17,032 bases of DNA, from positions 1-17,032 of the forward strand of contig JAEOSY010000096.1 of assembly GCA_016840125.1 (NCBI GenBank), given 5' to 3'. The position numbers and the translations under genes were made by a program. Below the pieces are notes generated by a model. The model had not been told where the DNA came from. It was given only the letters and a program-made list of their open reading frames with translations, and did not search any database. Source of the stretch: Candidatus Helarchaeota archaeon. GTDB taxonomy: Archaea; Asgardarchaeota; Lokiarchaeia; Helarchaeales; HEL-GB-A. Of the stretch, positions 4,200-16,654 are shown piece by piece (the first letter of the stretch is position 1; every line of letters begins with the position of its first letter).

Positions 4200-4640
4200 T
4201 TACTTGGGATTTTTCAATTCAGGTCTAAATTTCAAGCCGTATCGACGGACATCCTCTTGTTCATAAATAATACGAAATACTGCCTCAACTCGGGTCCCAA
4301 TTTTAATTTTCAAAGGGTTACAATCTGTTAATTGCACGTTCACTTTATTTTTCTGCTCATTATCCAGCTCAACCACTGCTATTGCATAGGCTCCACTCTT
4401 GCTTTGCATCTTTTTGAACTCCGGCGGTGCTGCACCCCGTCCAATTATTGTATAGGTATAAACGGTTCCTGTTGGGGGAAGCTCAATCAATTCTAAGGTA
4501 TTTGGTTTCGAACATTTATCACATAATACTTGGGGTGGGAAATTGACATACCCGCATTCTTTACATTTTCCTGCAACCAACCGATACTTTTGGGGAAGCG
4601 CGTTCCAATAACTGGGAATACTAACATGGGCACACATCAT
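4200..4640 (-). CDS. DUF35 zinc-ribbon / OB-fold acyl-CoA-binding protein
   Basis: A 146-residue protein with the two-part DUF35 layout. An N-terminal rubredoxin-like zinc ribbon has Cys26, Cys29, Cys40 and Cys43 (KCKECG ... LCDKCS), and an OB-fold follows from about residue 55 (GTVYTYTIIGRGAAPPEF, then YAIAVVEL and NVQLTDC). In archaea, DUF35 proteins form the scaffold of the thiolase / HMG-CoA synthase complex, where they help channel the CoA intermediate, and they occur next to those two genes as here (11-base gap). It may do the same here, but the neighbouring synthase-like protein lacks the normal catalytic residues, so the reaction supported is uncertain. A GGAGG site lies four bases before the first of two tandem ATG codons; either could be used. 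Confidence 0.9.
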   Translation of the reverse strand: MMCAHVSIPSYWNALPQKYRLVAGKCKECGYVNFPPQVLCDKCSKPNTLELIELPPTGTVYTYTIIGRGAAPPEFKKMQSKSGAYAIAVVELDNEQKNKVNVQLTDCNPLKIKIGTRVEAVFRIIYEQEDVRRYGLKFRPELKNPK

Positions 4641-4651
4641 AAAACCTCCAT

Positions 4652-5677
4652 TTACTCTAACTCAATTAACTCCTTGAATTTTAAATATTGGTTATAATCA
4701 ATATACTGCTTATTATCGAGATAAGTCGTCATTAGTGGAACATCCTCTAAAACTTCTTGAGCCTTTTCCACCTGCACGCTGAAAGCATCACAGCCTGCAC
4801 CCGAACCATACGAAGCACATAGGATCCGGTCATCCGGCTTTGCAGCCTCCAAAATTCCTATCAATCCCGTTAAAACAGAAGCCGCAGCACTATCACCTAT
4901 TACTCCTATTGTTTTCGTGTTTAATACTTTCTTATCAAACCCTATTTTCCTTAGGACTCTTGAAGGCTCTCTTGAATCATGTCCCTGAACGAATAAATAT
5001 TGAAAATCATCCGGTTTTAATCCTAGCTCTTTCAACAACTCTGAAACTGCTTGTTGTACCGAATTGATATAAGCTGATTGGTGATATTGTGGAATCCCTA
5101 AATCTTCAATCATAATAGATCCATCCTTACGAAAACGATCCGCGATGATTTCTACAGTGGCAGATGTTGCTCCCTCAATTTTTGCGATTCCGTTATCCTT
5201 CCCAATAATTAGAGCCGCAGCACTTGCACCATACGTATTTTCAATGGAATCTGAAGCGATACCCTTTGGCGCATCTGAGCTAACAACTAATCCCTTTCCT
5301 CCTTTACTAGCGACTATATCCATTAAAGTTAAAAGCGCGCTCGTACCTGCCTTTTCCGATTCTTTAAAATCCAATAACCGAACATCCAAAGGGATTCCAA
5401 TTGCCATTGCTACTTCAGCGGCTATCGATCGCAATGCATAGGGTGGAGAGCTACTCCCAACCCCAATGACACTGATCTCTTCTCTTGCTACTCCAGCATT
5501 CTTTATGGCATTCTTTGCTGCCTCAACTGCCATGGTACATATATCCTCATCGTACCCCATCACCGCTTTTTCCGTGATTTTCCCAGCAAAGTGCCCCCAA
5601 ACTTCTTTGATAGTTTCACTTTTAATCCGAAACCGCGGCACATAACAGCCGTACCCACAGATCTGCATCTCTACCAT
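4652..5677 (-). CDS. HMG-CoA-synthase-like protein lacking the catalytic Cys/Glu/His
   Basis: A 341-residue protein of the thiolase-fold HMG-CoA synthase family, near the usual archaeal length. Family landmarks are clear: ICGYGCYVPRFRIK at the N-terminus, DEDICTMAVEAAKNA, the YGSGAGCDAF motif near the C-terminus and GLIGILEAAKPDDRIL before it. The active site is changed. Where archaeal synthases have GSESHPYA, this protein reads GSSSPPYA, with Ser76 in place of the general-base Glu. Where they have FACKAGT, it reads KESEKAGT, with Glu108 in place of the nucleophilic Cys and a two-residue insertion. The FHQPN histidine position is Gln231, with His233 nearby. It cannot use the classical acetyl-Cys mechanism. 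It may be a structural partner of the thiolase or catalyse another CoA reaction. It sits 15 bases after the thiolase gene and 11 before the DUF35 gene, so all three are likely one complex. Confidence 0.82.
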   Translation of the reverse strand: MVEMQICGYGCYVPRFRIKSETIKEVWGHFAGKITEKAVMGYDEDICTMAVEAAKNAIKNAGVAREEISVIGVGSSSPPYALRSIAAEVAMAIGIPLDVRLLDFKESEKAGTSALLTLMDIVASKGGKGLVVSSDAPKGIASDSIENTYGASAAALIIGKDNGIAKIEGATSATVEIIADRFRKDGSIMIEDLGIPQYHQSAYINSVQQAVSELLKELGLKPDDFQYLFVQGHDSREPSRVLRKIGFDKKVLNTKTIGVIGDSAAASVLTGLIGILEAAKPDDRILCASYGSGAGCDAFSVQVEKAQEVLEDVPLMTTYLDNKQYIDYNQYLKFKELIELE

Positions 5678-5692
5678 TTGCCCTGCACCTCC

Positions 5693-6850
5693 TCATCCTC
5701 TCTGTAATATATGAATTGCTGCCGCACTCCCAGTGCCACCAACATTGTGAGTCAGTCCAATTTCTGCACCATCAACCGGATTTTGGTGTCGCCCAGTCAG
5801 TTGCTTCCAGACTTCGTAAATTTGCGCTATCCCAGTCGCTCCGATGGGGTGTCCTTTCGCTTTTAATCCCCCCCCCGTATTGATTGGAACCTTTCCCCCG
5901 ATCTCTGCTTGCCCTTCGTGACTAAAGAGCCCTCCCTCGCCTTTCTTACAAAACCCACAATCTTCGTAAGCGAGAATTTCTGCGATGGTGAAACAATCAT
6001 GAACTTCCGCTACTTGGATGTCTTTCGGTTCAAGTTTTGCCATCCTATATGCAGCTTTACTGGCTTTTATTGCTGCATCTATTCGCGTTAATGATTCACG
6101 GCGATATAGCGCTAAATAATCCGACCCCGCTCCCATCCCCGTAATATAAACTGGCGTGTCTGTGTATTTCTTCGCAATTTCTGCATCACACAAAATCGCT
6201 ACAGACCCTCCATCTGTTAGTGGACAACAATCGAAAACTGTCAAAGGCCATGCTACAAAAGGAGCATTCATCGCTTTTTCCAGCGAGATTTCCCTCTGGA
6301 ACTGAGCTTTTGGATTCATCGCTGCATATTTATGGTTTTTAACCGCGCACCGTGTGATATCTTCTTTTTTAGTTCCGAACTCATGCATATGGCGCGTTGC
6401 CATGAGCGCATAATTCCCGGGGAATGTCATTCCCGCAAGGCGCTCCCATTTGATATCTCCTGCAACTCCAAACCACCATAGGCGACTCTTTTTTGAGATG
6501 TCTTGCATTTTTTCAACCCCCCCGGCAATTGCCACTTTATTTTGGCCCGATAGGATGGAATAACAAGCGAATCGCAATGCGAAGCTGGACGACCCACAGG
6601 CATTCTCGACTCGTGCCGCGGGAATTCCCACGATATTTATCGCGTCGCCCACTAAAGCACTCATGTTTCCCAATTGCGAACCACCAAATGCCAAGGAACC
6701 AACAAAGGCTTCTTCAATATCAGACCGCTCAAAGTTATCTACATGTTGAATCGCTTCAAGATATGCTTCGGCAAATAAATCTTCATATGTTTTTTCAACA
6801 AATGAACCAAATTTCGTTTGACCGCACGCGATAAGTGCCACCTTTTTCAT
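5693..6850 (-). CDS. Thiolase family acyl-CoA acetyltransferase (archaeal SCPx-like type)
   Basis: From the ATG at 6848-6850 this is a 385-residue thiolase. The N-terminus is KKVALIACGQTKFG. The nucleophilic cysteine is Cys85 in VENACGSSSFALR. The VHDCFTIAE motif and the GGGLKAKGHPIGATG histidine loop are intact, and the C-terminus reads THNVGGTGSAAAIHIL. It should condense or cleave acyl-CoA esters, for example 2 acetyl-CoA to acetoacetyl-CoA or the thiolytic last step of an oxidation. It is the first gene of a thiolase / HMG-CoA-synthase-like / DUF35 operon, the arrangement of the archaeal thiolase-HMGCS complex. An in-frame TTG three codons upstream (6859) is possible, but the ATG gives the normal N-terminus. 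The missing synthase catalytic residues next door make a beta-oxidation or specialised CoA role as plausible as mevalonate synthesis. Confidence 0.9.
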   Translation of the reverse strand: MKKVALIACGQTKFGSFVEKTYEDLFAEAYLEAIQHVDNFERSDIEEAFVGSLAFGGSQLGNMSALVGDAINIVGIPAARVENACGSSSFALRFACYSILSGQNKVAIAGGVEKMQDISKKSRLWWFGVAGDIKWERLAGMTFPGNYALMATRHMHEFGTKKEDITRCAVKNHKYAAMNPKAQFQREISLEKAMNAPFVAWPLTVFDCCPLTDGGSVAILCDAEIAKKYTDTPVYITGMGAGSDYLALYRRESLTRIDAAIKASKAAYRMAKLEPKDIQVAEVHDCFTIAEILAYEDCGFCKKGEGGLFSHEGQAEIGGKVPINTGGGLKAKGHPIGATGIAQIYEVWKQLTGRHQNPVDGAEIGLTHNVGGTGSAAAIHILQRG

Positions 6851-6911
6851 ATTAATCAACTTTTCAAGAATTCTTAATACAATAAACTCAAGAGAATCTA
6901 GAAAATATTAA

Positions 6912-6954
6912 GGAGATTAACTTTTTAATATATTTTTTAATGGGATAAATCTCC
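6912..6954. promoter_or_regulatory. Thiolase promoter: TATA-like box framed by an inverted repeat
   Basis: Seven-base arms GGAGATT (6912-6918) and AATCTCC (6948-6954) frame an AT-rich core whose minus-strand reading AAAATATATTAA (6925-6936) resembles an archaeal TATA box. It lies about 75-85 bases upstream of the thiolase ATG. A regulator binding the inverted repeat would sit over the basal promoter and control the acyl-CoA operon. The arms are exact, but function is inferred. Confidence 0.4.
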
Positions 6955-7145
6955 AAATTATCACCCAAAATTTGAAATTTTATTTCTATGATGACATAGC
7001 CACGATTCACATCCCATTAACACCAGAGACGAGGAATTTACTTAACGCAGAGAAAATTAAATTAATAAAATCCTTAGTGGTCAGAGCAAAGGATAAATGT
7101 TTGTAAAGATTTTGTAGGAGTAGGAGAAAAAATAGAGGGATAATT

Positions 7146-8321
7146 ATGACGAATTTTCAATTTAAAACAAGGAGTTATTCAGGTTCAGGAGAACCCTGTG
7201 TCGAGTGTGGAACGTTACTGAGTAACGGACAAAAATTTGTTGAAATTTCGGAAACCGAGAGTGATCAAATTCCCTATCGAGCGGGGAAATACCACGTCCA
7301 ATGTCTCGCTAAGCGAAAATACTTTATTGCATTCTTGGATATTTTAGGATTCAAGAGATTTGCTGAAACACACAGTCTTTATGAATTGTACGAAAAAATT
7401 CAGGATATGTTTATCGCAGCGCGCTCTACAAGAGTGAAAATCACTTCGAGGATCGATAATATCACAAGGGAGATCATACTAGCGGATGTCCCATTTCTCG
7501 CAATATTTGATTCTATTATCATATATCAAGAAGTAATACCGTATAGCGAAACTGACGATCAAGAAGAATGGAAAGAGCAAGCATTCAACAAGTTTATAAT
7601 CGCATTAGAAGCAGTTCTGAAAGAATCTTTTAGGAGAGGAATTTTTTTAAGGGGAGGAATTTCATATGGTGAGGCAATTATCAGATTAGATCCACAGAGT
7701 TACGAACATATTATTCTCGGAAAGCCATATATAGAGGCTGTGGAAATAGAAAAAACCCAGTCTTGGATGGGAGTTGCCTTTCATCCCTCATTAAGCTCGT
7801 TTTTAGAAGGAACCCAGCATAGGTCCGAATTAGTGGAGTATGAGATCCCCAAGAAAAAAACTAAACTAAAAATACCAAACATTACAATCGGATGGGTGGA
7901 TTCTTCTTTAGAGCCCGATAGAGATATCTTCGATGAATGGGAGACTGAAGAGAAGCGTCACAAGAAAATCAAAAAGAATACTCGAAAATTTTTTAATCAA
8001 TGTCTGAAACGTTCTCCAAGACCGACCAAGATTGAGATAGATGGTGTATCTTCTCTCGCCTCTTCAATCACCTCTGCAATAACCTTTCCCAATCGAATTT
8101 TTGGTGTAATGGTTAACCTTTCTAGAAAGGAATTGGATTGGTATAATTTAGCTCAGATAAAAGATGGCTTAGAAGGGATAGGCATCTCGAAATCTTTAGA
8201 CCAAATAGAAGAAGGAATCGAAGTACTAGAGAGAGATCCAGATCGTATGGGTGATTTTGAAATTGAAAGGCGCATGAGAAATGGAATTTTAGAAGTTAGA
8301 GTGATAAAAAGAAACGATTAA
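7146..8321 (+). CDS. Class III nucleotide-cyclase-like protein with N-terminal zinc finger and C-terminal winged helix
   Basis: A 391-residue protein in three parts. Residues 18-53 hold Cys18, Cys21, His50 and Cys53 (CVEC ... HVQC), a treble-clef-like zinc site. Residues about 58-215 match the class III cyclase core: YFIAFLDILGF with metal-ligand-like Asp65, FDSIIIY with Asp122, FLRGGISYGEAI at 167-178 and LGKPYIEAVEIEK at 191-203. After a charged linker, residues about 330-391 look like a winged helix (WYNLAQIKDGLEGIG ... LEVRVI). Proteins with this core can make cyclic nucleotides, and some (Pycsar cyclases) act in antiviral signalling; whether this one is active is not shown. The ATG follows GAGGGA at good spacing. 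A T/C-rich tract follows the stop. It is transcribed toward the helicase-Cas1 gene, with about 200 bases between the two stop codons, and is AT-rich like the chromosome. Confidence 0.65.
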   Translation: MTNFQFKTRSYSGSGEPCVECGTLLSNGQKFVEISETESDQIPYRAGKYHVQCLAKRKYFIAFLDILGFKRFAETHSLYELYEKIQDMFIAARSTRVKITSRIDNITREIILADVPFLAIFDSIIIYQEVIPYSETDDQEEWKEQAFNKFIIALEAVLKESFRRGIFLRGGISYGEAIIRLDPQSYEHIILGKPYIEAVEIEKTQSWMGVAFHPSLSSFLEGTQHRSELVEYEIPKKKTKLKIPNITIGWVDSSLEPDRDIFDEWETEEKRHKKIKKNTRKFFNQCLKRSPRPTKIEIDGVSSLASSITSAITFPNRIFGVMVNLSRKELDWYNLAQIKDGLEGIGISKSLDQIEEGIEVLERDPDRMGDFEIERRMRNGILEVRVIKRND

Positions 8322-8323
8322 GT

Positions 8324-8388
8324 CTTTGAAAAGTAGATCTGACAACTTTTTCTCCTTTCTTCCCTTGTATATATAGATGTTTTCAAAG
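8324..8388. repeat. Inverted repeat after the cyclase-like gene
   Basis: Exact nine-base arms CTTTGAAAA (8324-8332) and TTTTCAAAG (8380-8388) enclose 47 bases that include the pyrimidine-rich tract. The left arm starts three bases after the cyclase stop codon. It could fold at the 3' end of the transcript; the loop is long, so a hairpin role is uncertain. Confidence 0.4.
8346..8365 (+). terminator. T-rich archaeal-type terminator of the cyclase-like gene
   Basis: A pyrimidine-only run, mostly T (CTTTTTCTCCTTTCTTCCCT), starts 25 bases after the stop codon. Archaeal RNA polymerase commonly ends transcription at such T-rich tracts without a strong hairpin. Confidence 0.45.
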
Positions 8389-8527
8389 TAATATTTAAAA
8401 ATCTATAGTCATAATCTGGATTTCGTGAGCTTCAATTTGAGTTACAATATCAGAGATTAAATTTTTTTAAGTACACGTCTGTCACATGCCTGACCCACTA
8501 CTGGCTCACAAGTTCATGAGGTTAATT

Positions 8528-11500
8528 TTAATCTCTTAATGAAAAATCCATCCAATACTGACTTTTATTGATATAATCCATGGACCCATTATGGATACGA
8601 TGGGCATCTTCTAAGGATATACCTAGTTCAACAAGTTCATACGGTTTTTTGAGGGCGAGTTGGAGGACATTGCGGAGTTTCGCATTGATGAGGATATCTT
8701 CTAGGGCCGGATCGATATCATCCAAGAGATTGAGAAGATAGTGAATACTCGCTGGGTGGTTAGGATCGGGCGCTTTCCCCAATTTATACAGTGAATCCTC
8801 CGAAATCCCTTGTTCGGGAATGATGAGGAGATTATAATCCATAGTGATACGCGCGAGGAGAACTTTGTCATTCAAATACTTTAACCAGATGGATCCCATA
8901 GCCGAAAAGGGCGCACTGCGTTCAATAGGGGTAGGTTCTGCTTGCTGTGATGGTATGGCGAGGTAGTAGAACCATGGTAGGAGGGATTTGAGGGCTTTCA
9001 TCGCATCGTGGAACTCCTTCTCATCGTAAAGCAGATTAGCAAATAACTTCGCCTCTGTGACCATGATTTCAAAGAGGGGTTTCGAGGTATCCGTGCCATG
9101 GGGGATGGGTTGCTGGCAGATGAGGTCGAATAGTTCCTCTAATTGACTTTCACGCGCGGATTGGACGTAAAATACCCTCTCCCAGCCCGTCTTACCCGAG
9201 AAGAACGCCTCTTGATCGAGTGCATTCTCCGCATACCACGCTTGGAGTGCGGGCGTGGCATCAGGCGGTATCGTACCAGCGAATGCATGCAGTAAGTAAT
9301 AGCGGAACGGTGGGCGGTAGGCATCCATAATATCATAGATTAATTCTCGGTTACGGTGATGTTCGGCAGTTCGATAGGTGGTGGATCTCTTCCGTTGATG
9401 TACAATACCGGGACCCGGATAATATCTCGAAAAGCCAGCTTTGGCGAGGCTATCCCCTATCTTCATTTCCAGTAAGCGATAGAGCTGGTTGAGGGCAGCA
9501 TTGAAGGGATCATAGGCTTTGGATCCATAGTAAAAGTCAGTTCTAGCGAACCGCTGGATTTGACGACCTGAGAACCACAAATTTTGCGGCAGGGATTCCT
9601 TAATCACGTCCCACGCAATCCTTTCCGCATTCCCCTCGAGGCTCCGTAAGTGACTGATAATGCGCACGGGGTTGAGGTCGGGATCTGCACTAATTTCGCG
9701 GTTCAAATATTTATAGTATTTCTCCCGATCTTTCCGCTTGCGGGATCCGATTAATTCCGCATGCTTCCTCCGTAAACGACGCACTAGCTGTTCCTTTTTG
9801 GCTTTTCGCCGTTCTAGTATGAGGTATGCCTCCGCTAAATAATCGAGCTGGGCGAGGCATTGCTCCCGCGAACCCGTAGACAATAAAGTGGAATAATGAA
9901 CATTGGAAAGGATTTTCGCCACCACCATATCACGGGCTACTATGAGCAAAGGGTGGTCTAGGGGCACATCCCGTTCTTGGAAGGTCAGTAATCGATTCCG
10001 TAAGTCCTCCTCAATCTCGCGACGCTGCTCAGAACGGTCTACCTCTGCCTTAGTTAGGATTTTAATCGGAATTTGCGCCTCATGGAGAATATTAATATCA
10101 AAGGCGAAACTACCGCCAGCGATGACGACCTTCCGCGCTTGATCCACCCAGAATCGCACGCCACCGCGTTCGGGGATGGCGAAGTAGGGGATATCCGACC
10201 CTTTCTGGGCGTGATAGGTCAGTGTCTCACCCGAACGTAAGTAAATCAAGCGCGTGTATTCATGTTTGCGGAACCCCGCTAGACCTTCATCATACATTAG
10301 GCGATGCTTGGGAATTTGGACGTTGGTACGGGACACGTAACTGAACCCAGTAGTTAGTCGAACCCGCTTAATGATGGCATGGCACTCCTTATTCGAGCAT
10401 ACCGTTGCCCGACGGAATGTAGGAATCAATATTATCCCATCCTCACAGTGCGGGCAGTGCGCCCGTTTTTTATCTATGCGATCGAGATCATTCAACATCC
10501 ATGTGGTTTTTTGTTTCTTTTCATAACTTGGACACGCAGGCTGTCTATGCCATACCCATGCTGCTTCCAGCTGACACTTACCTCGCTTTTCTCCGGGAGG
10601 GCGATTCTTCGGGTGGGCAGTGAAGTACATGCAAGTCTTGCAGTGATTCATTTCTTCACGGCGATCTTGAAAACCAGCACAAGCAGGACGATTCCCTGTT
10701 ACCATAATCTCGTCCACCCCTTGATTTTCCAATAACCGACATATGCATGTTTTTTGATTGGGTTTATTGTAATTCATGAAATGAGTACAGGTTTGACAAC
10801 TCTGTGGTACTCCATCTAACCAGTAGCGGTCGGGCGGTCGATGGGCGTGATACGCGGAGTAATCAGGACGTTTGACAAGTTTCTCTCTTAGTATTCCATT
10901 TAAATTGAAGTGAAGTACTTGACGTGAAAAAGAAAGCCGCTTAGGAATTTGGTGGTCGGGAAACAGGTCCTCAAAGACCACTTGGATGGCATGAATAGGA
11001 TCACTTCTTCTGGGTTGCCCCATGAAAATTCGGAATTGTTGTCGCAATAGATGCTGTAATTCCTTGATTGTTACTCCTTTTGAGGCTATATATTCTAGTA
11101 CTGCGAGAATCATGGGTGGATAGGGGCTCTGCCGATGTTTAATAATACGAGCGCGAGGTTCCGGGCGACGGGACCAATTTACATCCATCGGTTGGTAGCG
11201 TTTAATAATACGTCCCATGCGGCGGTAGGTAGGTCCATCTAGGGTAAAAATATCTGTCGGCATTTCATAATACGTTTCACCTACAGTCAAATGGGATTGC
11301 ACTCCGCGATATAGTAAATACATTCCGATGGACACCCATGACCCTAGCCGTACCCAATCACTGAAATCTCCATCGGAGATCTGATGCCCATACTGTAGGG
11401 CGAAGACGTGATCTTCATCCTTTTGTAGGTTCACTTGCGTCATGAATGATTTAATGGATACCCGTCGCTTCTCCACAAACTCCGGATCAACGGTTTGATC

Positions 11501-13360
11501 AAGTTCGGGCTGGGCTTTCTCCGCAATCACTTCGGTCAGTAAATCCATGTAATTCGTGAAGTGGGTGGGGTGTCCACGCTGATTCCGCTTGATCGGGATT
11601 GGATCGACCCCCCAATGCTCGCGGATGACTTCCATCATTTTCGGGATGGACCGTCGCACGTCAGGCGTTCTTGGCAACTTTAATGAATTCATTATATAAC
11701 GTAAATGGAAGCGTAACCCTTTGGTGATGACATTTATATCTAACGAGGACTCCACCATTGCCTCCCCTATATAAGTCAAATAAATAAACCCCTTTTCTTT
11801 GCGTATTAACGCCCGTTGTTTCAAGCGTTTCAAGATCCCATTGAGGTCGAACTCTACGTTATACTGGTTCAACCGTTCCTCCAGTTCTGTGGGGGTAGCG
11901 AAGCGGTGGTATAACGTTTCTAATACTAACTGGCTTTTGAATAATTCGCGTTCTCTCTCTAATTTCTCATAATTCCGTTTCTGTTTGATCTCTTCGGGTT
12001 CCCACAGTTGGATTTCAGTTAAAGGGGTCGAGAGCTGGCTTTGAATGGGTTCCAAGCGAAAACCATGAATTTCCCCTCGAATGGGGCTACTCAATAAATC
12101 AATGATCTCGTCCCCAGCTTCATCTACTGCCTCTACGATGGTAGAATAGAAATGCTTGCGGTTTTTCTTGGGTAAGAAAAAGCTCACTTTCGGATAATCT
12201 TCCCGAGAACGCCCGCACATCTGCGCTAATTTGGACGGGGGGTAATTCTCGGGGTCGGTGACGGCAATGGCGTGAATTTCCTCAATATCCACCCCCGTTT
12301 CGAGTAAGGGGGAGGATACAAGGATGCGGATCTTGCCAGGCTTATTGAATTCATCAAACACTTCTGCCTGCGTTTTGCGGCGCATTTTCTTGGCTTTCCG
12401 TCCACCATTCCGCGCCAATCCTGCATGGATGTAGTCACACCACACGTGGGGGTGCTTCTTGGGCCAGCGTTTACGCAAGGCATCGTTGACGATCCGTTCT
12501 GCCAAGCGCCGGGAGAAACAGAAAATGAGCACGCGGGCAGGTTCGACGGTACCATCGTCGTTTTGCCGGGTTTCCACGAACTCTTCCACAAACTCCCGCG
12601 CCATCACCATTTTTTCAAAAGTAATCTTCCACAGACTGTCACGGAGATCGTCTGGGTCCAGCTCGTTATGTCGATGCTTCTCAACATAGATAAATTTGCG
12701 TTCAGGGTGATCATAGAGCAATTGACACCCGAGATCTTTGGCCCACAGTTCGGCACTGGCTTCCTCGAACGTAGCACTGAGCAGGCAGAGCTGGCATCCT
12801 GGGTAGGTGTCCCGGATCTTGTAGAGCATGGTCTCGAGTTTGGAACCCCGTTGGAGGTCATTAATATAATGCACTTCATCAACACAGACCACTCCTAATG
12901 GCTCCCGTTCCGCGAAGTATTTGTAGGCTTGCATCTGAAATAAAAACGCACGGAACGCTTCGAAGGTCCCCACGATGACTAGTCGCTTACGGTACTGCTG
13001 AATTTCCCGTTTCATGGGGCGATTTTCACCAGAGATCGTCACGACATGTACCGTGCCTCCAAAGAAGTCGTATATCTCATTTGCCTTCTGCCGCAAGAGT
13101 TGATTATGCGGGACCAAATAAACTGCAACTTTCCCATGCCGTAATGCTTCTCCGATACCGACCAATGCCACTAGGGTCTTTCCACTCCCTGTATCTTGTA
13201 CAAGGAGGAGACTCTCCCCAGTGCGCACGATCCGAAATCCCTCCAATTGGAAGGGCCGTAACTTTTTCAGAGAAAACTTTCTGGATCTGGCATATCGATC
13301 TATGTAGCCGATAATTTCTGTGTAAGTAAGAATTGAATTAAAATCGGGACTTGAACCCAT
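8528..13360 (-). CDS. cas1: Ski2/Hel308-like helicase - cysteine modules - Cas1 fusion protein
   Basis: From the ATG at 13358-13360 this is a 1610-residue protein. Residues 35-410 are an SF2 helicase: QDTGSGKT at 55-62, DEVH at 161-164 followed by YINDLQRGSKLE, LSAT at 194-197, SSPLLETGVDI near 350 and QMCGRSRED at 380-388. The Ski2/Hel308 pattern continues with a winged helix at about 475-540. Two four-cysteine modules follow (Cys855/858/872 or 874/894 and Cys907/910/929/943), then a zinc ribbon (Cys969/972/988/993). Residues about 1035-1360 match Cas1: a beta domain (LIYLRSGETLTYHA, VVIAGGSFAFDINILHEA), VARDMVVAKILSN, SLEGNAER with Glu1242, AYDPFNAALNQLYRLLE, PGIVH with His1321, and YDIMDAYRP with Asp1343 and Asp1346. 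The Glu/His/Asp ligands for spacer integration are kept. About 250 further residues are unrecognised. No HD nuclease is present. The frame is open 79 codons further upstream, but that stretch overlaps the TATA box and is AT-rich non-coding in character. It diverges from the cas7-cas5 operon. Confidence is high for helicase and Cas1, low for the tail. Confidence 0.9.
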   Translation of the reverse strand: MGSSPDFNSILTYTEIIGYIDRYARSRKFSLKKLRPFQLEGFRIVRTGESLLLVQDTGSGKTLVALVGIGEALRHGKVAVYLVPHNQLLRQKANEIYDFFGGTVHVVTISGENRPMKREIQQYRKRLVIVGTFEAFRAFLFQMQAYKYFAEREPLGVVCVDEVHYINDLQRGSKLETMLYKIRDTYPGCQLCLLSATFEEASAELWAKDLGCQLLYDHPERKFIYVEKHRHNELDPDDLRDSLWKITFEKMVMAREFVEEFVETRQNDDGTVEPARVLIFCFSRRLAERIVNDALRKRWPKKHPHVWCDYIHAGLARNGGRKAKKMRRKTQAEVFDEFNKPGKIRILVSSPLLETGVDIEEIHAIAVTDPENYPPSKLAQMCGRSREDYPKVSFFLPKKNRKHFYSTIVEAVDEAGDEIIDLLSSPIRGEIHGFRLEPIQSQLSTPLTEIQLWEPEEIKQKRNYEKLERERELFKSQLVLETLYHRFATPTELEERLNQYNVEFDLNGILKRLKQRALIRKEKGFIYLTYIGEAMVESSLDINVITKGLRFHLRYIMNSLKLPRTPDVRRSIPKMMEVIREHWGVDPIPIKRNQRGHPTHFTNYMDLLTEVIAEKAQPELDQTVDPEFVEKRRVSIKSFMTQVNLQKDEDHVFALQYGHQISDGDFSDWVRLGSWVSIGMYLLYRGVQSHLTVGETYYEMPTDIFTLDGPTYRRMGRIIKRYQPMDVNWSRRPEPRARIIKHRQSPYPPMILAVLEYIASKGVTIKELQHLLRQQFRIFMGQPRRSDPIHAIQVVFEDLFPDHQIPKRLSFSRQVLHFNLNGILREKLVKRPDYSAYHAHRPPDRYWLDGVPQSCQTCTHFMNYNKPNQKTCICRLLENQGVDEIMVTGNRPACAGFQDRREEMNHCKTCMYFTAHPKNRPPGEKRGKCQLEAAWVWHRQPACPSYEKKQKTTWMLNDLDRIDKKRAHCPHCEDGIILIPTFRRATVCSNKECHAIIKRVRLTTGFSYVSRTNVQIPKHRLMYDEGLAGFRKHEYTRLIYLRSGETLTYHAQKGSDIPYFAIPERGGVRFWVDQARKVVIAGGSFAFDINILHEAQIPIKILTKAEVDRSEQRREIEEDLRNRLLTFQERDVPLDHPLLIVARDMVVAKILSNVHYSTLLSTGSREQCLAQLDYLAEAYLILERRKAKKEQLVRRLRRKHAELIGSRKRKDREKYYKYLNREISADPDLNPVRIISHLRSLEGNAERIAWDVIKESLPQNLWFSGRQIQRFARTDFYYGSKAYDPFNAALNQLYRLLEMKIGDSLAKAGFSRYYPGPGIVHQRKRSTTYRTAEHHRNRELIYDIMDAYRPPFRYYLLHAFAGTIPPDATPALQAWYAENALDQEAFFSGKTGWERVFYVQSARESQLEELFDLICQQPIPHGTDTSKPLFEIMVTEAKLFANLLYDEKEFHDAMKALKSLLPWFYYLAIPSQQAEPTPIERSAPFSAMGSIWLKYLNDKVLLARITMDYNLLIIPEQGISEDSLYKLGKAPDPNHPASIHYLLNLLDDIDPALEDILINAKLRNVLQLALKKPYELVELGISLEDAHRIHNGSMDYINKSQYWMDFSLRD

Positions 13361-13384
13361 AGTGGTAGTAGATAATTTGTAATA

Positions 13385-13393
13385 CTTATATAT
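13385..13393 (-). promoter_or_regulatory. TATA box of the helicase-cas1 gene
   Basis: The minus strand reads CGGAAG then ATATATAAG, a purine-rich BRE-like element followed by a TATA box. Its centre at 13389 predicts transcription starting near 13363, three bases before the ATG at 13360. This nearly leaderless arrangement is what selects that ATG over the upstream one at 13597. Confidence 0.7.
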
Positions 13394-13486
13394 CTTCCGA
13401 GTGACCAACCACAGAGGAGGTAAATTCAGGGAATTATTTCGAATATGGAAGGAGAAGGGTTTTTTTCTATTTTCAACCCTTATTAT

Positions 13487-13521
13487 AACCCAGTATGAAG
13501 CATTTTCCAAAGTTAGGGGTT
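13487..13521 (+). repeat. 35-base imperfect direct repeat, copy 1
   Basis: Begins AACCCAGTATGAAGC and ends AGTTAGGGGTT. It matches copy 2 at 30 of 35 positions without gaps. The ends AACCC and GGGTT are inverted relative to each other. It lies in the divergent control region. Confidence 0.65.
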
Positions 13522-13582
13522 CATTTTCAATTCTAAAAGTTTTAATAGAATTTTTTTGGAAATTTATCAGAATTTTCTCATT

Positions 13583-13596
13583 TGCGCAATTGCGCA
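13583..13596. promoter_or_regulatory. Perfect palindrome, possible operator
   Basis: TGCGCAATTGCGCA is a 14-base perfect palindrome in an otherwise AT-rich stretch, about 130 bases upstream of the cas7 TATA box and 190 upstream of the helicase-cas1 TATA box. With the preceding bases (TTTGCGCAATTG) it resembles the second site at 13692-13708. Such paired sites suit a dimeric repressor or activator acting on both promoters. Confidence 0.5.
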
Positions 13597-13691
13597 TTTT
13601 GGATGGGAGGGTTCCACAAGAACAAGTGGTAAGGTGGATCTCGATCAGATATTTTTAAACGTATTTTCATGGAGGGGGTGGGTGAAAGTAT

Positions 13692-13816: not shown

Positions 13817-13906
13817 TATCCTATCTTTAACACAAAAACTGGTGAAGAAATTTGGAAAAGAATGGTAGAAAAATTATTGAAACGACTTTTTTGGCTCATG
13901 CAGTGA
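13808..13906 (+). other. Possible 32-codon upstream reading frame in the cas7 leader
   Basis: An ATG at 13808 opens a 32-codon frame ending at the TGA at 13904-13906, overlapping the first 18 codons of cas7 in another frame. The peptide (MGNYPIFNTKTGEEIWKR, then a basic, hydrophobic end) looks plausible as protein, but no clear ribosome site precedes it. It may be a leader peptide or chance. Confidence 0.2.
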
Positions 13907-14823
13907 CCAACCGCAACAACCCTCTGGTGATGATCGGGACCGCCAAGAGCGAACGGGATCGCAAGCAAACCTCTCCTTTTGCGAAGGTTGGGTTTCTCAG
14001 TGGTAATACTTTACGGGGATGGTTGCGGCACGCGTTTGAGAAGCTACTGCTTAGCCATGGCGTATCCATCTGTCATAACATGCCTGAGGACGCACTCACA
14101 GCAGCTCGCAATAAGGTGTATTACAAGGAAGATTGTACCTTAGGCTACCATCCGCGCGGGAGCTGCAAGGATCAGGGTGGGTGCCTTATCCACCAGCTCT
14201 TCGGAGACCGAGATGTGACGGGCAATCTCATGGTACCCAGTATCATGTACTACCCGACAACCACAGGTAATGGCAGTGCCACTACAAATATCAACAAAGC
14301 TCTGGGTGGCGTTGGGATGGGGCGCGTAGAAGTGGTTCGCAATAGTCCCCGCGCACGCCTCCACACCCACCAAACCTATCTCACAGTGGAAACGTTGGCA
14401 GGAATCGCTATAGAAGCCCCCCTCCATTTAGTCCTCCATCAAGCTAATGATGCCCATGAAACGCTAATTCTGAAAGGTCTGCAATACTTAAACGAACAGG
14501 TGAAAGATAGTACCTTCGATTTTTTGCTCGGGGGCATGCGTAATGAGGGGTTCGGGCGGGCGACCGCGCTCCCCATGGTGGCGAAGAAATCCAAGAAAAA
14601 GTCCCAGAAGACCTTAGCCAACGAAGAGGAACCTAATGGTGGAAAATCCGCGCCTAAAACCGTCATACAGTTCAAAATGGATAAAATCGAAACCAATAAC
14701 CTCAATAAAAAATTCGAAGCGTTGGTCGATCACGAAATAAACAAACGTGGGTTTAAAGTCGAAAAGACACAAGAACAAGAAAATGATAAGAAGTCAGCAG
14801 AGACGGTAGAGGTCAGTTCATAA
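13852..14823 (+). CDS. cas7: Cas7-family RAMP protein (Csf2/Csc2-like backbone subunit)
   Basis: A 323-residue protein with the marks of a Cas7 crRNA-binding backbone subunit. It has a first beta strand KIIETTFLAHAVTN, the RAMP motif FLSGNTLRGWLRHAFEKLLL at 48-67, a cysteine/histidine insert (Cys95, His100, Cys105, Cys111, His114) followed by LFGDRDVTGNLMVPS, and a glycine-rich loop LLGGMRNEGFGRAT at 225-238. The fit is best to type IV Csf2 and the related type I-D Csc2; this is family resemblance, not a search result. Residues about 245-323 form a Lys/Glu-rich tail that is probably flexible and unusual for Cas7. The start is a TTG, preceded by GGTGA six bases upstream; a stop codon at 13843-13845 excludes any earlier start. 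It is first in a three-gene operon, ending one base before the cas5 ATG. Its job would be to coat the guide RNA in an effector complex. Confidence 0.78.
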   Translation: MEKNGRKIIETTFLAHAVTNRNNPLVMIGTAKSERDRKQTSPFAKVGFLSGNTLRGWLRHAFEKLLLSHGVSICHNMPEDALTAARNKVYYKEDCTLGYHPRGSCKDQGGCLIHQLFGDRDVTGNLMVPSIMYYPTTTGNGSATTNINKALGGVGMGRVEVVRNSPRARLHTHQTYLTVETLAGIAIEAPLHLVLHQANDAHETLILKGLQYLNEQVKDSTFDFLLGGMRNEGFGRATALPMVAKKSKKKSQKTLANEEEPNGGKSAPKTVIQFKMDKIETNNLNKKFEALVDHEINKRGFKVEKTQEQENDKKSAETVEVSS

Positions 14824-14824
14824 A

Positions 14825-15556
14825 ATGTCCCGAATTCTCCGCTTACTTTTTGAATTCCAGACACCCTATAGCGGGGATATTCGTTTTATTACAGGAAATG
14901 CCATTAGACACGCCTTATCCGCATTTGATGGAGACATTGATTGCTCGGTCGGAAAATTAACAGATCTCCCCTACCTCACCGAACCGAAATCCTATCATGA
15001 ATTTTTCCGCTTTCGGACACGAAAATACTTGCCGCCGTTTAATATGGAACGCTATTTCGATAAGTATCGTAACCGCATCGGGGTACGCGTGTTCTACACA
15101 CCCCGGTTTGTTACGTTTGATGTCTTAGATCCTTCAGAAGGGTTCCTCAGCTTTCTACAGAAGAAGAAGTTGTTACAGTTGGGCGGGCGTAGAAACAGTG
15201 GGTTCGGCGTGGTGGCGTTGAAAGAATTTGTCTGGATCGATTTGGAGGATATCAACCTCCCAGACAGAGCCACTCACCTTACCTTGCTGGCCCCTATGGT
15301 CTTTCTACCTGGTATCGTGGAGAAGTACGAGTGCCGTCAGGAGCAGCTCCGCATCTGGAATCACAGCACCAAGAATAATATCTTAGTCTTTAGTCCAGGA
15401 CAGTTCTACCGGCTTAAACCCAAAACTAATATTTCCAAGGTTGCAATGGAAGGGATAACCCGACGACTCCGCAAGGGACATACGCGCCTCTTGAACCAGT
15501 TCGGTTTCGGAGAGTATATTTTGAATGATTTCCATAATGGGGGAAAGAAATCATGA
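14825..15556 (+). CDS. cas5: Cas5-like RAMP protein (possibly Csf3-like)
   Basis: A 243-residue RAMP protein. It opens with a strand ILRLLFEFQTPYSGD and the helix motif FITGNAIRHALSAF, comparable to the GxxLRG helix of other RAMPs. It has a glycine-rich loop LLQLGGRRNSGFGVV at 116-130 closing a first ferredoxin-like fold, and a second FGFG motif at 226-229 near the C-terminus, which suggests a second degenerate fold. Position after cas7 and length fit the Cas5 subunit that caps the 5' handle of crRNA, such as Csf3 of type IV. With no separate Cas6 in the window, it could also process crRNA; no catalytic residues can be assigned. The ATG begins one base after the cas7 stop codon, and its stop overlaps the next ATG (ATGA), so translation is probably coupled. 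RAMP identity is good; the Cas5 rather than Cas6 assignment is moderate. Confidence 0.68.
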   Translation: MSRILRLLFEFQTPYSGDIRFITGNAIRHALSAFDGDIDCSVGKLTDLPYLTEPKSYHEFFRFRTRKYLPPFNMERYFDKYRNRIGVRVFYTPRFVTFDVLDPSEGFLSFLQKKKLLQLGGRRNSGFGVVALKEFVWIDLEDINLPDRATHLTLLAPMVFLPGIVEKYECRQEQLRIWNHSTKNNILVFSPGQFYRLKPKTNISKVAMEGITRRLRKGHTRLLNQFGFGEYILNDFHNGGKKS

Positions 15557-16254
15557 ATGATAACACCTTCAAGGATGAGATGCTCATGGTCCTACGCCAT
15601 GACTTACATAAATTGAAGCTCTCTAATGCCGTGGATCACCAACATGCCATGCCTGATGATCTCGCCCGTAAAGGCGACGGTGTGGCAGCATGGATGAGTC
15701 GTCACAGTCACAAGGTGAAATTTGAGAAAACTCATTACAGGAGTTCGTTAGTCTTTCCCGTACGCAATCTCAACAATCCCCGCCGTCTCATTAGCGAACA
15801 TCGCCAGGAAATGGAAGTTCTATTTCAAGAAGCTGACCCCTACCAACTTCAAGCGGCTATTTTGCACTCCAAACTCCTCAATTTCTACAACGAAGCCCGT
15901 GAGTTCCCCCTAACCTCCTTGAAATACCACATCCTCTTGACCTGTTCCCTCTACTACAACTTACGCAATCATATTAACTGGACGGATTTATACTTCTGCG
16001 AAAACCTCCCCGTGCAGAGCCCCTTCCAAGTCATTTATCAGGACAGTCGCCGCACGTGGGCATTGATCCCCCACCAGAAGGATCGGGGATTGGCGCGGGT
16101 GGGGGCGCGCTTCCACCGCATGTGGGACCGCCGCAGAAAATTGAGTATTGGAGGTGATCTACAAGCGTTGGATGGTATTCTCTCCAACATCGGCAGCTGG
16201 ACGGTGGCATTGACCACCCTCGAAGACTTCCTCGACTTCCACGGATTGCAGTAA
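15553..16254 (+). CDS. Unrecognised third operon protein, histidine-rich N-terminus
   Basis: A 233-residue protein I do not recognise. It overlaps the Cas5-like gene by four bases (ATGA) and is the last gene of the operon, so it is almost certainly part of the same system. The N-terminal third is rich in histidine and charge: His16-Asp17, His29-Gln-His31, Trp48, His51-Ser-His53, His61-Tyr. The middle (about residues 95-150) is probably helical (QLQAAILHSKLLNFYNEA, HILLTCSLYYNLRN). A basic stretch (RFHRMWDRRRK, about 187-197) suggests nucleic-acid contact. It has no zinc-finger cysteines like those of Csf1 and no HD, palm or glycine-rich RAMP motif. By position it may replace the missing large subunit (Cas8/Cas10/Csf1) or the small subunit Cas11; this is inference. 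No membrane segment or signal peptide is seen. Confidence 0.85.
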   Translation: MNDNTFKDEMLMVLRHDLHKLKLSNAVDHQHAMPDDLARKGDGVAAWMSRHSHKVKFEKTHYRSSLVFPVRNLNNPRRLISEHRQEMEVLFQEADPYQLQAAILHSKLLNFYNEAREFPLTSLKYHILLTCSLYYNLRNHINWTDLYFCENLPVQSPFQVIYQDSRRTWALIPHQKDRGLARVGARFHRMWDRRRKLSIGGDLQALDGILSNIGSWTVALTTLEDFLDFHGLQ

Positions 16255-16371: not shown

Positions 16372-16406
16372 AACCCAGTATGTAGCTTCTTCCACAGTTA
16401 CGGGTT
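16372..16406 (+). repeat. 35-base imperfect direct repeat, copy 2
   Basis: Begins AACCCAGTATGTAGC and ends AGTTACGGGTT. It is in the same orientation as copy 1 and matches it at 30 of 35 positions. Together the copies bracket the cas7-cas5-unknown operon but not the helicase-cas1 gene. They could be remnants of an attachment site, a short element or a regulatory site. Confidence 0.65.
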
Positions 16407-16461
16407 GCCATGGCGGGAACTCGAGAGTCTGGGGGATGCTGAAACGCCGCTGGAGTGGCAA
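16405..16461 (+). repeat. Imperfect inverted repeat next to repeat copy 2
   Basis: TTGCCA (16405-16410) pairs with TGGCAA (16456-16461), and an inner CGG pairs with CCG (16447-16449 region) after an internal loop. The enclosed bases include CTCGAG. It could form a structured RNA, but the pairing is short. Confidence 0.25.
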
Positions 16462-16654
16462 TGTATAGAATAAATTAAAAAGCAGAAATTAGCGCCACTT
16501 TCTTCATAATCTTTAACCTCTCACTGTATGCAGGTGTCAAATAAGAACATTTCCCTGAAAATTCTTCTATTTTTTTAAGTATGGACTTTATTATTATAGA
16601 ACTACTTCCAGTTCCTCATCTCTCTACTAATTTTCTGCCTGTTTAGTCGAGGGA

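Follow-up and report, generated by a model that had tools for sequence, protein, structure and literature searches.

The window analysed here is the whole stretch of 17,032 nucleotides (nt) that makes up positions 1 to 17,032 of contig JAEOSY010000096.1 (assembly GCA_016840125.1) from a Candidatus Helarchaeota archaeon. It carries a minus-strand gene predicted to encode a single polypeptide with a Ski2/Hel308-type helicase and a Cas1 integrase, and three RAMP cassette genes, RAMP1, RAMP2 and ORF3 (13852-16254), which diverge from it. Judged from its sequence, the large protein genuinely unites in a single chain a Hel308/Ski2-like helicase, putative zinc-binding segments and a Cas1 whose active-site residues are intact. 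The features of the locus are collected in Table 1.

The helicase-Cas1 protein and its gene

Both halves of the helicase core are matched in Pfam, and the motifs of helicase superfamily 2 (SF2) are found as TGSGKT (residues 136-141), DEVH (240-243), LSAT (273-276) and QMCGRSR (459-465). The Pfam family Cas_Cas1 (PF01867) matches residues 1254-1431 with E 9.3e-9, above the curated cut-off, and PADLOC gives a Cas1 match with E 1e-11. The NCBIfam cas1 match (E 3.8e-11) lies below the cut-off of that full-length equivalog, and the NCBIfam Hel308-type models match far below their full-length cut-offs. A profile search of PDB sequences with the Cas1 of the fusion finds 4n06, 6opm and Cas6-RT-Cas1. 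The original prediction of a helicase and a Cas1 in one chain is thus borne out by Pfam, PADLOC and the SF2 motifs.

The putative catalytic residues of the Cas1 domain are Glu1321, His1400, Asp1422 and Asp1425. Residues are counted from the upstream ATG of the longest open frame (1689 amino acids, aa); subtraction of 79 gives the numbering of the original prediction, in which the same four residues were named as Glu1242, His1321, Asp1343 and Asp1346. All four are invariant in the window protein and seven homologues. Across an alignment of 14 proteins the first three do not vary, while the position of Asp1425 holds Asp in 11 and Glu in three. The same 14 proteins all retain the lysine of Walker A, the DE pair in the DExH box and cysteines 1048, 1051, 1067 and 1072.

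A model of residues 540-1560 has a mean pLDDT of 73.6, with most of the Cas1 region between 70 and 93. The top Foldseek match of this model in the PDB is Archaeoglobus fulgidus Cas1 (4n06, E 1.2e-9, probability 1.00), and the casposase 6opm follows with E 5.7e-9. The Hel308 structures 2va8 and 2p6r are matched with probability 1.00 but with E values of 0.015 and 0.028. The Cas1 identity and fold that had been proposed for this region were therefore recovered by profile and by structure.

The longest open frame of the gene spans 8528-13597 on the minus strand, and the plus strand over 8528-13360 contains stops throughout. The start at 13360 used in the original prediction, which did not state the strand, corresponds to residue 80 of the longest frame (codon 13360-13358). 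Met80 is probably the true start, because the homologues begin at comparable points and a TATA-like stretch lies just upstream. Six N-terminally complete homologues start 13-53 residues ahead of alignment column 100, where Met80 gives 21 residues and the longest frame gives 100. The TATA-like stretch, GAAGATATATAAGT, was read by eye from the minus strand.

Table 1. Positions of the features in the window
Feature	Positions	Strand	Remarks
Helicase-Zn-Cas1 fusion open reading frame (ORF)	8528..13360	-	From probable start Met80; 1610 aa plus stop
DEAD/DEAH helicase core, N-terminal half, residues 114-280	12758..13258	-	PF00270 (DEAD), E 2e-21
Helicase C-terminal half, residues 352-464	12206..12544	-	PF00271 (Helicase_C), E 9.9e-11
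Cysteine-rich, predicted zinc-binding segments	10373..10702	-	C1048, C1051, C1067, C1072 invariant in 14/14
Cas1 beta and catalytic domains, residues 1110-1530	9008..10270	-	Limits approximate; profile, model, Foldseek
Cas1 active-site codon span	9323..9637	-	Glu1321 9635-9637, His1400 9398-9400, Asp1422 9332-9334, Asp1425 9323-9325
TATA-like stretch, predicted promoter	13384..13397	-	24-37 nt upstream of Met80; reading of sequence
35-nt element, copy 1	13487..13521	+	Between the divergent genes
RAMP1, Cas7/Csm3-like, 323 aa	13852..14823	+	Profile matches
RAMP2, 243 aa	14825..15556	+	RAMP-like by glycine-rich loop only; homologue in L034, 42%
ORF3, 233 aa	15553..16254	+	Related to HD-like C-terminal half of G177/G178 F1; homologue in L034, 42%
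35-nt element, copy 2	16372..16406	+	Downstream of ORF3; 86% identical to copy 1
Candidate 3'-terminal structured RNA	16404..16470	+	TTGCCA...TGGCAA stem, tail TGTATAGAATAAATT; by analogy with relatives; undetected by models R1 and R2

Recurrence of the fusion and its place among Cas1 proteins

A helicase and a Cas1 occur in one open frame, in the same domain order, at 18 other loci from several assemblies, with 19-35% identity to the window protein where this was measured. Among these loci, L035 reaches a contig end and P0008 starts within helicase motif I. In a protein search in which 7990 candidates were scored, seven proteins of 1853-2766 aa, apart from the window protein, carry both halves in the precomputed Pfam lists, and four further proteins carry the helicase only. 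Two of the seven represent loci of the Helarchaeota metagenome-assembled genome (MAG) LW55_61 (G001), whose five Cas1 matches all fall in large frames. The Asgard genomes G177 and G178 have shorter versions of 1323-1363 aa, in which Cas1 is missing from the precomputed lists; PF01867 still matches three of them (2.9e-10 to 1.0e-6).

An assembly artefact that joined two genes has a negligible probability. The window is a single 17 kb contig and the copy at L093, outside the 18, is broken into two overlapping frames (another outside copy, at L096, starts at a contig end), but the same join with the same domain order at 18 other loci of several assemblies already refutes an artefact for the family. 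These same-order homologues stand in for sequencing reads across the join.

The giants L001, L002, L033 and L035 of G001, together with P0003-P0005 and P0008, have an extra segment with H.D.DG..S and W(F/Y)DHH motifs, which appears DHH-like by eye. A DHH nuclease domain is, however, indicated by motif only and was confirmed neither by Pfam on P0002-P0005 nor by a PDB profile. The source record of P0005 names Candidatus Deferrimicrobium, a bacterium, and a binning error seems possible. One giant, at L001, is adjoined (5388-9567) by genes for a family B DNA polymerase and for TnpB/OrfB. No relative of helicase-Cas1 or RAMP1 was found by tblastn in viral contigs (stretches matching one or two peptide patterns), and the phage and plasmid collections gave matches to the helicase region only.

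In a tree of 53 Cas1 rows, the ordinary Asgard Cas1 proteins form one group with support 100/100 (29 rows; of the 30 loci in this set, one gave no match). The window protein lies outside this clade, within an 11-row helicase-Cas1 group (98/94), and the ten helicase-Cas1 rows that remain make up another group of their own (100/99).

No CRISPR array was found by a simple array finder in the window or at any helicase-Cas1 or RAMP1 locus scanned, the scan being of the window and 123 loci and not of whole genomes or of loci from L124 on. The same finder did locate eight arrays, each next to an ordinary Asgard Cas1 gene; 8 of the 30 loci of this kind, with flanks of only some 1.5 kb, have one, and the other 93 loci have none. 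Matches to the Cas2 family PF09827 are absent from five of eight host genomes, G001 and G178 included (PF09707 was not searched); in the other three, five matches were found, every one beside ordinary Cas1 genes.

These results bear on the role first proposed for the protein, a one-protein machine for primed adaptation, which would here acquire spacers for arrays elsewhere in the genome. The Cas1 active-site residues are intact, and G177 also holds an ordinary Cas1 with Cas2. However, arrays are seen at none of these loci, as against 8 of 30 for ordinary Cas1 (arrays elsewhere in the genomes were not searched), Cas2 stands only beside ordinary Cas1, the Helarchaeota genome has its five Cas1 matches in large frames and no Cas2 by PF09827, and the Cas1 domain stands apart from the ordinary clade. 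A coupling to spacer acquisition is not supported and we consider it very improbable.

RAMP cassettes and their terminal RNAs

The original prediction left the neighbours of the fusion, which are RAMP-type genes of the array-less kind, unidentified. As a single sequence RAMP1 gives a weak Cas7/Csm3-like match. A 40-member RAMP1 profile matches the Cas7 of PDB entries 21bh, 8yhd, 8yhe and others with E 7.8e-9, two of which (8yhd, 8yhe) are titled as type VII complexes, and one Csm3 model matches 36 of the 40 family members. For RAMP2, hhalign finds no relation to families F0, F1, F8 and F9. ORF3 is related by hhalign to the F1 family of G177/G178 (89.6%), the values for two other F1 groups (21.2% and 1.2%) not being significant, and its BLASTP match to L070 has E 8e-6. 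F1 consists of a predicted RAMP fold joined to a segment in which H132, D133, H140, H162, H163 and D182 are invariant in 34 of 34 members, by our reading a putative HD-like signature. The Pfam HD match to F1 is sub-threshold, and no PDB sequence matches F1 up to E 0.5; those Foldseek matches of F1 whose names denote CRISPR components are RAMP subunits, the best with E 6.5e-3. No Cas10 or Cas14 was found among the cassette genes scanned.

Counterparts of RAMP1, RAMP2 and ORF3, with 48, 42 and 42% identity, lie 4 kb from a helicase-Cas1 gene in the Helarchaeota MAG (locus L034). The closest sequenced relative of the window is the Asgard genome G081, with 51% identity in RAMP1 and up to 54% in ORF3. 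At window 4200-6859 (minus strand) there are genes which we take to encode a thiolase, an HMG-CoA synthase and a DUF35-like protein. This region matches G081 contig C215 at 75% DNA identity, and the match stops at 6851, before the RAMP region. The HMG-CoA synthase is 77% identical to that of G081 and 60% to that of the Helarchaeota MAG, in a search of Asgard genomes only. A 391-aa ORF adjoining the fusion (7146-8321, plus strand) has a zinc-like CxxC start and an IAFLDILGF motif, and matches no Pfam or PADLOC family above chance.

RAMP1 was found in 18 of 227 Asgard genomes at no fewer than 47 places, two of them weak. Up to ten candidates were scored in each genome, and these counts are lower bounds: at least ten places in G177, at least seven in G062, at least six in G060 and at least four in G178. 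In 48 loci compared, most of them chosen for RAMP1, RAMP1 is present in 41 and F1 in 38. Six of the ten G177 cassettes contain helicase-Cas1, and no Cas1 match was found in the other four.

Other large proteins accompany some of these cassettes. Standalone HTH-zinc-Cas1 proteins (HTH, helix-turn-helix; family F5) of 619-698 aa occur at L071 (5188-8628), L072, L106, L108, L109, L113 and L116. In some lineages they lie near a PD-(D/E)XK nuclease (F11) and at other loci near a RAMP1-F1 cassette, making them a second RAMP-tied type of Cas1. The RAMP cassettes L098-L101 contain F7, a protein of 993-1438 aa with zinc motifs and no P-loop; its C-terminus is Cas1-like by eye only, the Cas1 profile does not match it, and it is perhaps a helicase-dead relative of helicase-Cas1. 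Large frames also stand beside RAMP1 at L090 (8654-12667, 1337 aa), in the usual place of helicase-Cas1, and at L088 (10331-14218, 1295 aa); the Cas1 profile gives no match to either.

A comparison of four of the ten G177 cassettes with G178 shows all four to be missing there beside matching flank, with both flanks common to the two genomes in three cases (L094, L089 and L091). At L094 the segment 4130-9377, with RAMP1, F1 and the RNA described below, is missing and the flanks join within about 10 bp; on sequence comparison the site in G178 looks like a clean empty site. At L089 the missing segment is 7050-10728, its right edge being defined by a 153-nt match at 70%. At L091, 6160-12273, comprising F1, RAMP1 and nearly all of helicase-Cas1, is missing at one exact junction, and an RNA copy remains on the contig. 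At L092 only the right flank is common, and G178 keeps part of the terminal RNA without the cassette and its helicase-Cas1; on the left side only a dispersed 48-bp repeat matches G178. A 45-bp near-perfect palindrome lies at L092 2518-2563, on the left edge of the missing cassette; since further copies are dispersed in G178, it is not taken as an element end. A similar comparison of the window with G081 and G001 yielded no empty site, the G081 match ending at window 6851.

In two lineages, G177/G178 and G081, a structured RNA is located at the downstream end of the cassette and is followed by flank specific to the locus. The cassette genes of G177 and G178 adjoin a conserved stretch some 120 nt long. 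With 150 candidates scored per genome, its covariance model matches at least 25 places across G177, at least 20 across G178 and none in six further genomes. Twenty-eight copies fold on the sense strand with -25.1 kcal/mol and 27 pairs, 14 of them compensated, as compared with -13.3 kcal/mol, 16 pairs and eight compensated on the opposite strand, and singly the sense strand folds better in 26 of 28. This two-strand fold reversed an earlier assignment of the RNA as antisense to the genes (first model, R1), in which G-U pairs had been taken as strand evidence; the analyses made on the antisense strand indicate real pairing of one hairpin and a weaker orientation. In ungapped 10-nt windows, with the anchor present in 25 of 28 copies, identity has values of 0.46 and 0.90 within the RNA end, 0.61 across it and 0.30-0.33 beyond it. 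At L094 some 10 nt separate the RNA end from the border of the empty site.

The arrangement in G081 is alike, but the RNA that follows ORF3 there, at seven loci, is a different one. The seven copies fold with -29.8 kcal/mol (shuffled columns: -9.4 ± 2.9), and their identity drops from 0.83-0.91 inside to 0.40 and then 0.23 past the end. BLAST places this RNA at 15 sites in G081, 11 of them at 83% identity or more over at least 95 nt, and at none in G001. The RNA stretch is present in all seven copies, although in four only a 3' part of the ORF3 gene is matched and another is truncated by a contig end. The ORF3 copies at L138, L139, L140 and L142, which retain varying extents of that 3' part, all keep the RNA stretch, and at L142 the start of RAMP1 is joined to the end of ORF3; from their sequences these four look like non-autonomous derivatives.

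By its position and shape, the stretch 16404-16470 of the window is a candidate RNA, and its tail resembles that of G081. Compared with shuffled sequences, the fold of 16372-16460 is slightly more stable (z -1.53) and that of 16407-16455 is not (z 0.12). Rfam at gathering scores detects nothing in the window, and only a tRNA (in L034) among four loci. The 35-nt pair was dropped as a CRISPR remnant because there are only two copies, 2.9 kb apart. By eye, the Helarchaeota locus has its own similar pair, before RAMP1 and after ORF3; such pairs may be shared promoter or RNA elements.

Possible function and relation to known systems

The occurrence of at least ten cassettes in one genome, the absence of four of four from a related genome and the terminal RNA with its locus-specific flank suggest a mobile element. 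Since related cassettes end in structured RNA and come and go, helicase-Cas1 would be the likely integrase of this CRISPR-derived element. We therefore favor, with a probability of roughly 0.55, the proposal that the fusion is the ATP-driven integrase of an array-less Asgard RAMP (ARAMP) cassette which behaves as a mobile element. The helicase would open the DNA duplex either at the target site or at the donor end, and Cas1, in the manner of a casposase and without Cas2, would join a 3' end to target DNA by transesterification. The terminal RNA would be bound by the RAMP proteins, and the HD-like protein could act as a nuclease. Cassettes without helicase-Cas1 might be moved in trans, and solo RNAs could be decayed copies of cassettes.

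Several observations weigh against this proposal. Among eight helicase-Cas1 loci found through Cas1 alone, the only loci used for this count, RAMP1 is nearby in four and not in the other four, which are the giants of the Helarchaeota MAG, within the stretches examined. The evidence from empty sites and multiple copies comes from relatives and not from the window's own genome, and absence from G178 can be due to deletion there. For L091 and L092 a deletion leaving remnants seems likelier, judging from these sequences, because a whole RNA copy or part of the RNA stays in place. Neither a target-site duplication nor a terminal inverted repeat could be resolved, even at the cleanest empty site (L094). 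RAMP1-F1 lies directly upstream of the EF-2 gene in five genomes (L103, L105, L107, L114 and L119; L122 by DNA match), which looks like stable inheritance. With regard to the RNA, neither model (R1, R2) detects it in the window, single RNA sequences beat shuffles only slightly on either strand (z -0.50 to -1.65), the antisense fold in G081 also beats shuffles (-17.9 versus -3.9 ± 2.3), and covariation in G081 is thin, with 3 of 34 pairs changed on both sides.

The four giants without a RAMP1 neighbour, which share the further conserved H.D.DG...DHH segment, could also point to a cellular enzyme of recombination or repair. Cas1 cuts branched DNA, and its structure-specific nuclease activity might be combined with Hel308-type unwinding of stalled forks, the RAMP neighbours being a later association. 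The patchy distribution, the multiple copies and the association with RAMP genes in separate lineages make this explanation improbable.

A defence function has a better claim, although we regard it as rather unlikely. Here the RAMP complex and the HD-like nuclease would attack invaders, helicase-Cas1 would unwind, process or capture their DNA, and the copy number and presence/absence pattern might, just as doubtfully, reflect the fast turnover usual in defence islands. Cas7-like and HD-like parts are typical of interference, and the related HRAMP is described as a probable distinct defence system by a source that calls the ARAMP mechanism enigmatic (PMC8730458). However, no array or spacer store was found in the loci and window scanned, and a family of elements better accounts for the conserved terminal RNAs and their locus-specific flanks, for the copies that lack helicase-Cas1 and for the solo RNAs.

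ARAMP, the RAMP systems of Asgard archaea, were reportedly described by Makarova et al. in 2020 (CRISPR J, doi 10.1089/crispr.2020.0012). The window locus fits ARAMP in its Asgard affinity, its Cas7-type RAMP1, its Cas1 outside the ordinary clade and the lack of an array in the scan. For a Cas5-type RAMP gene, another ARAMP feature, RAMP2 offers a glycine-rich loop alone and hhalign relates it to none of F0, F1, F8 and F9. In the passages available from two later papers, ARAMP is array-less and derived from type III, usually has HNH or PD-(D/E)XK nucleases (PMC12669027) and is mostly accompanied by a distinct Cas1, and certain Cas1 homologues in Asgard archaea may be parts of new mobile elements (PMC8730458). 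The likeness to the window thus extends from the Asgard host and Cas7-type RAMP genes to the distinct Cas1, the missing array and extra nuclease-like genes. Those same passages make no mention of a helicase-Cas1 fusion, a terminal structured RNA or mobility of RAMP cassettes, which the original paper may contain. The visible parts of PMC12770985 and PMC9755687 merely cite Makarova et al. 2020, and that of PMC10910872 reports other fusions. A literature search by phrase, title or abstract opening found no helicase-Cas1 fusion, though Makarova et al. 2020 may still describe one.

It is useful to compare the fusion with casposases. The casposase 6opm is among its closest solved relatives and has a Cas1 fold and active site, apparently without Cas2. 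In contrast to a casposon, the cassettes have RAMP genes and a helicase fused to Cas1. No terminal inverted repeats or target-site duplication could be made out at the L094 empty site. No PolB was found among the window and cassette genes scanned; one stands beside L001 and is possibly the host's. Family 3 casposons have a Cas1 fused to zinc-binding and HTH domains, as mentioned in PMC9939771. The type III and type VII Cas7 proteins resemble RAMP1 by profile, but the cassettes scanned have no Cas10 or Cas14 and no array was found with them. In Cas6-RT-Cas1 and Cas2-Cas3, as in the window, an enzyme is fused to an adaptation protein; here, however, Cas1 has a Ski2/Hel308-type helicase as its partner, and the loci lack arrays.

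In the TnpB/IscB OMEGA systems an RNA is located at the element end and is followed by flank that differs with each insertion. This geometry is seen in the G081 and G177/G178 cassettes and was not detected in the window. The proteins differ, being of the Cas7 type, and no RuvC or HNH nuclease was found among the cassette genes scanned. It is possible, but doubtful, that ARAMP cassettes are RNA-guided mobile elements built of class 1 CRISPR parts, in which the terminal RNA would use host DNA of the flank as its guide, a Cas7/RAMP-HD complex would read it and helicase-Cas1 would unwind the selected site and insert the cassette there. By this analogy, equally tentative, they could be a class 1 counterpart of TnpB/IscB with a casposase-like integrase.

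With the conserved terminal RNA, the variable presence of the cassettes and a motor-fused Cas1, the enigmatic ARAMPs, which combine CRISPR-type effectors and Cas1 with no array, gain a concrete and testable mechanism. A helicase-fused Cas1 would be a new kind of integrase to study. Should the proposal hold, mobility is driven by Cas1 in combination with parts of class 1 CRISPR systems, and this has a bearing on the link between casposons and CRISPR in the archaea closest to eukaryotes.

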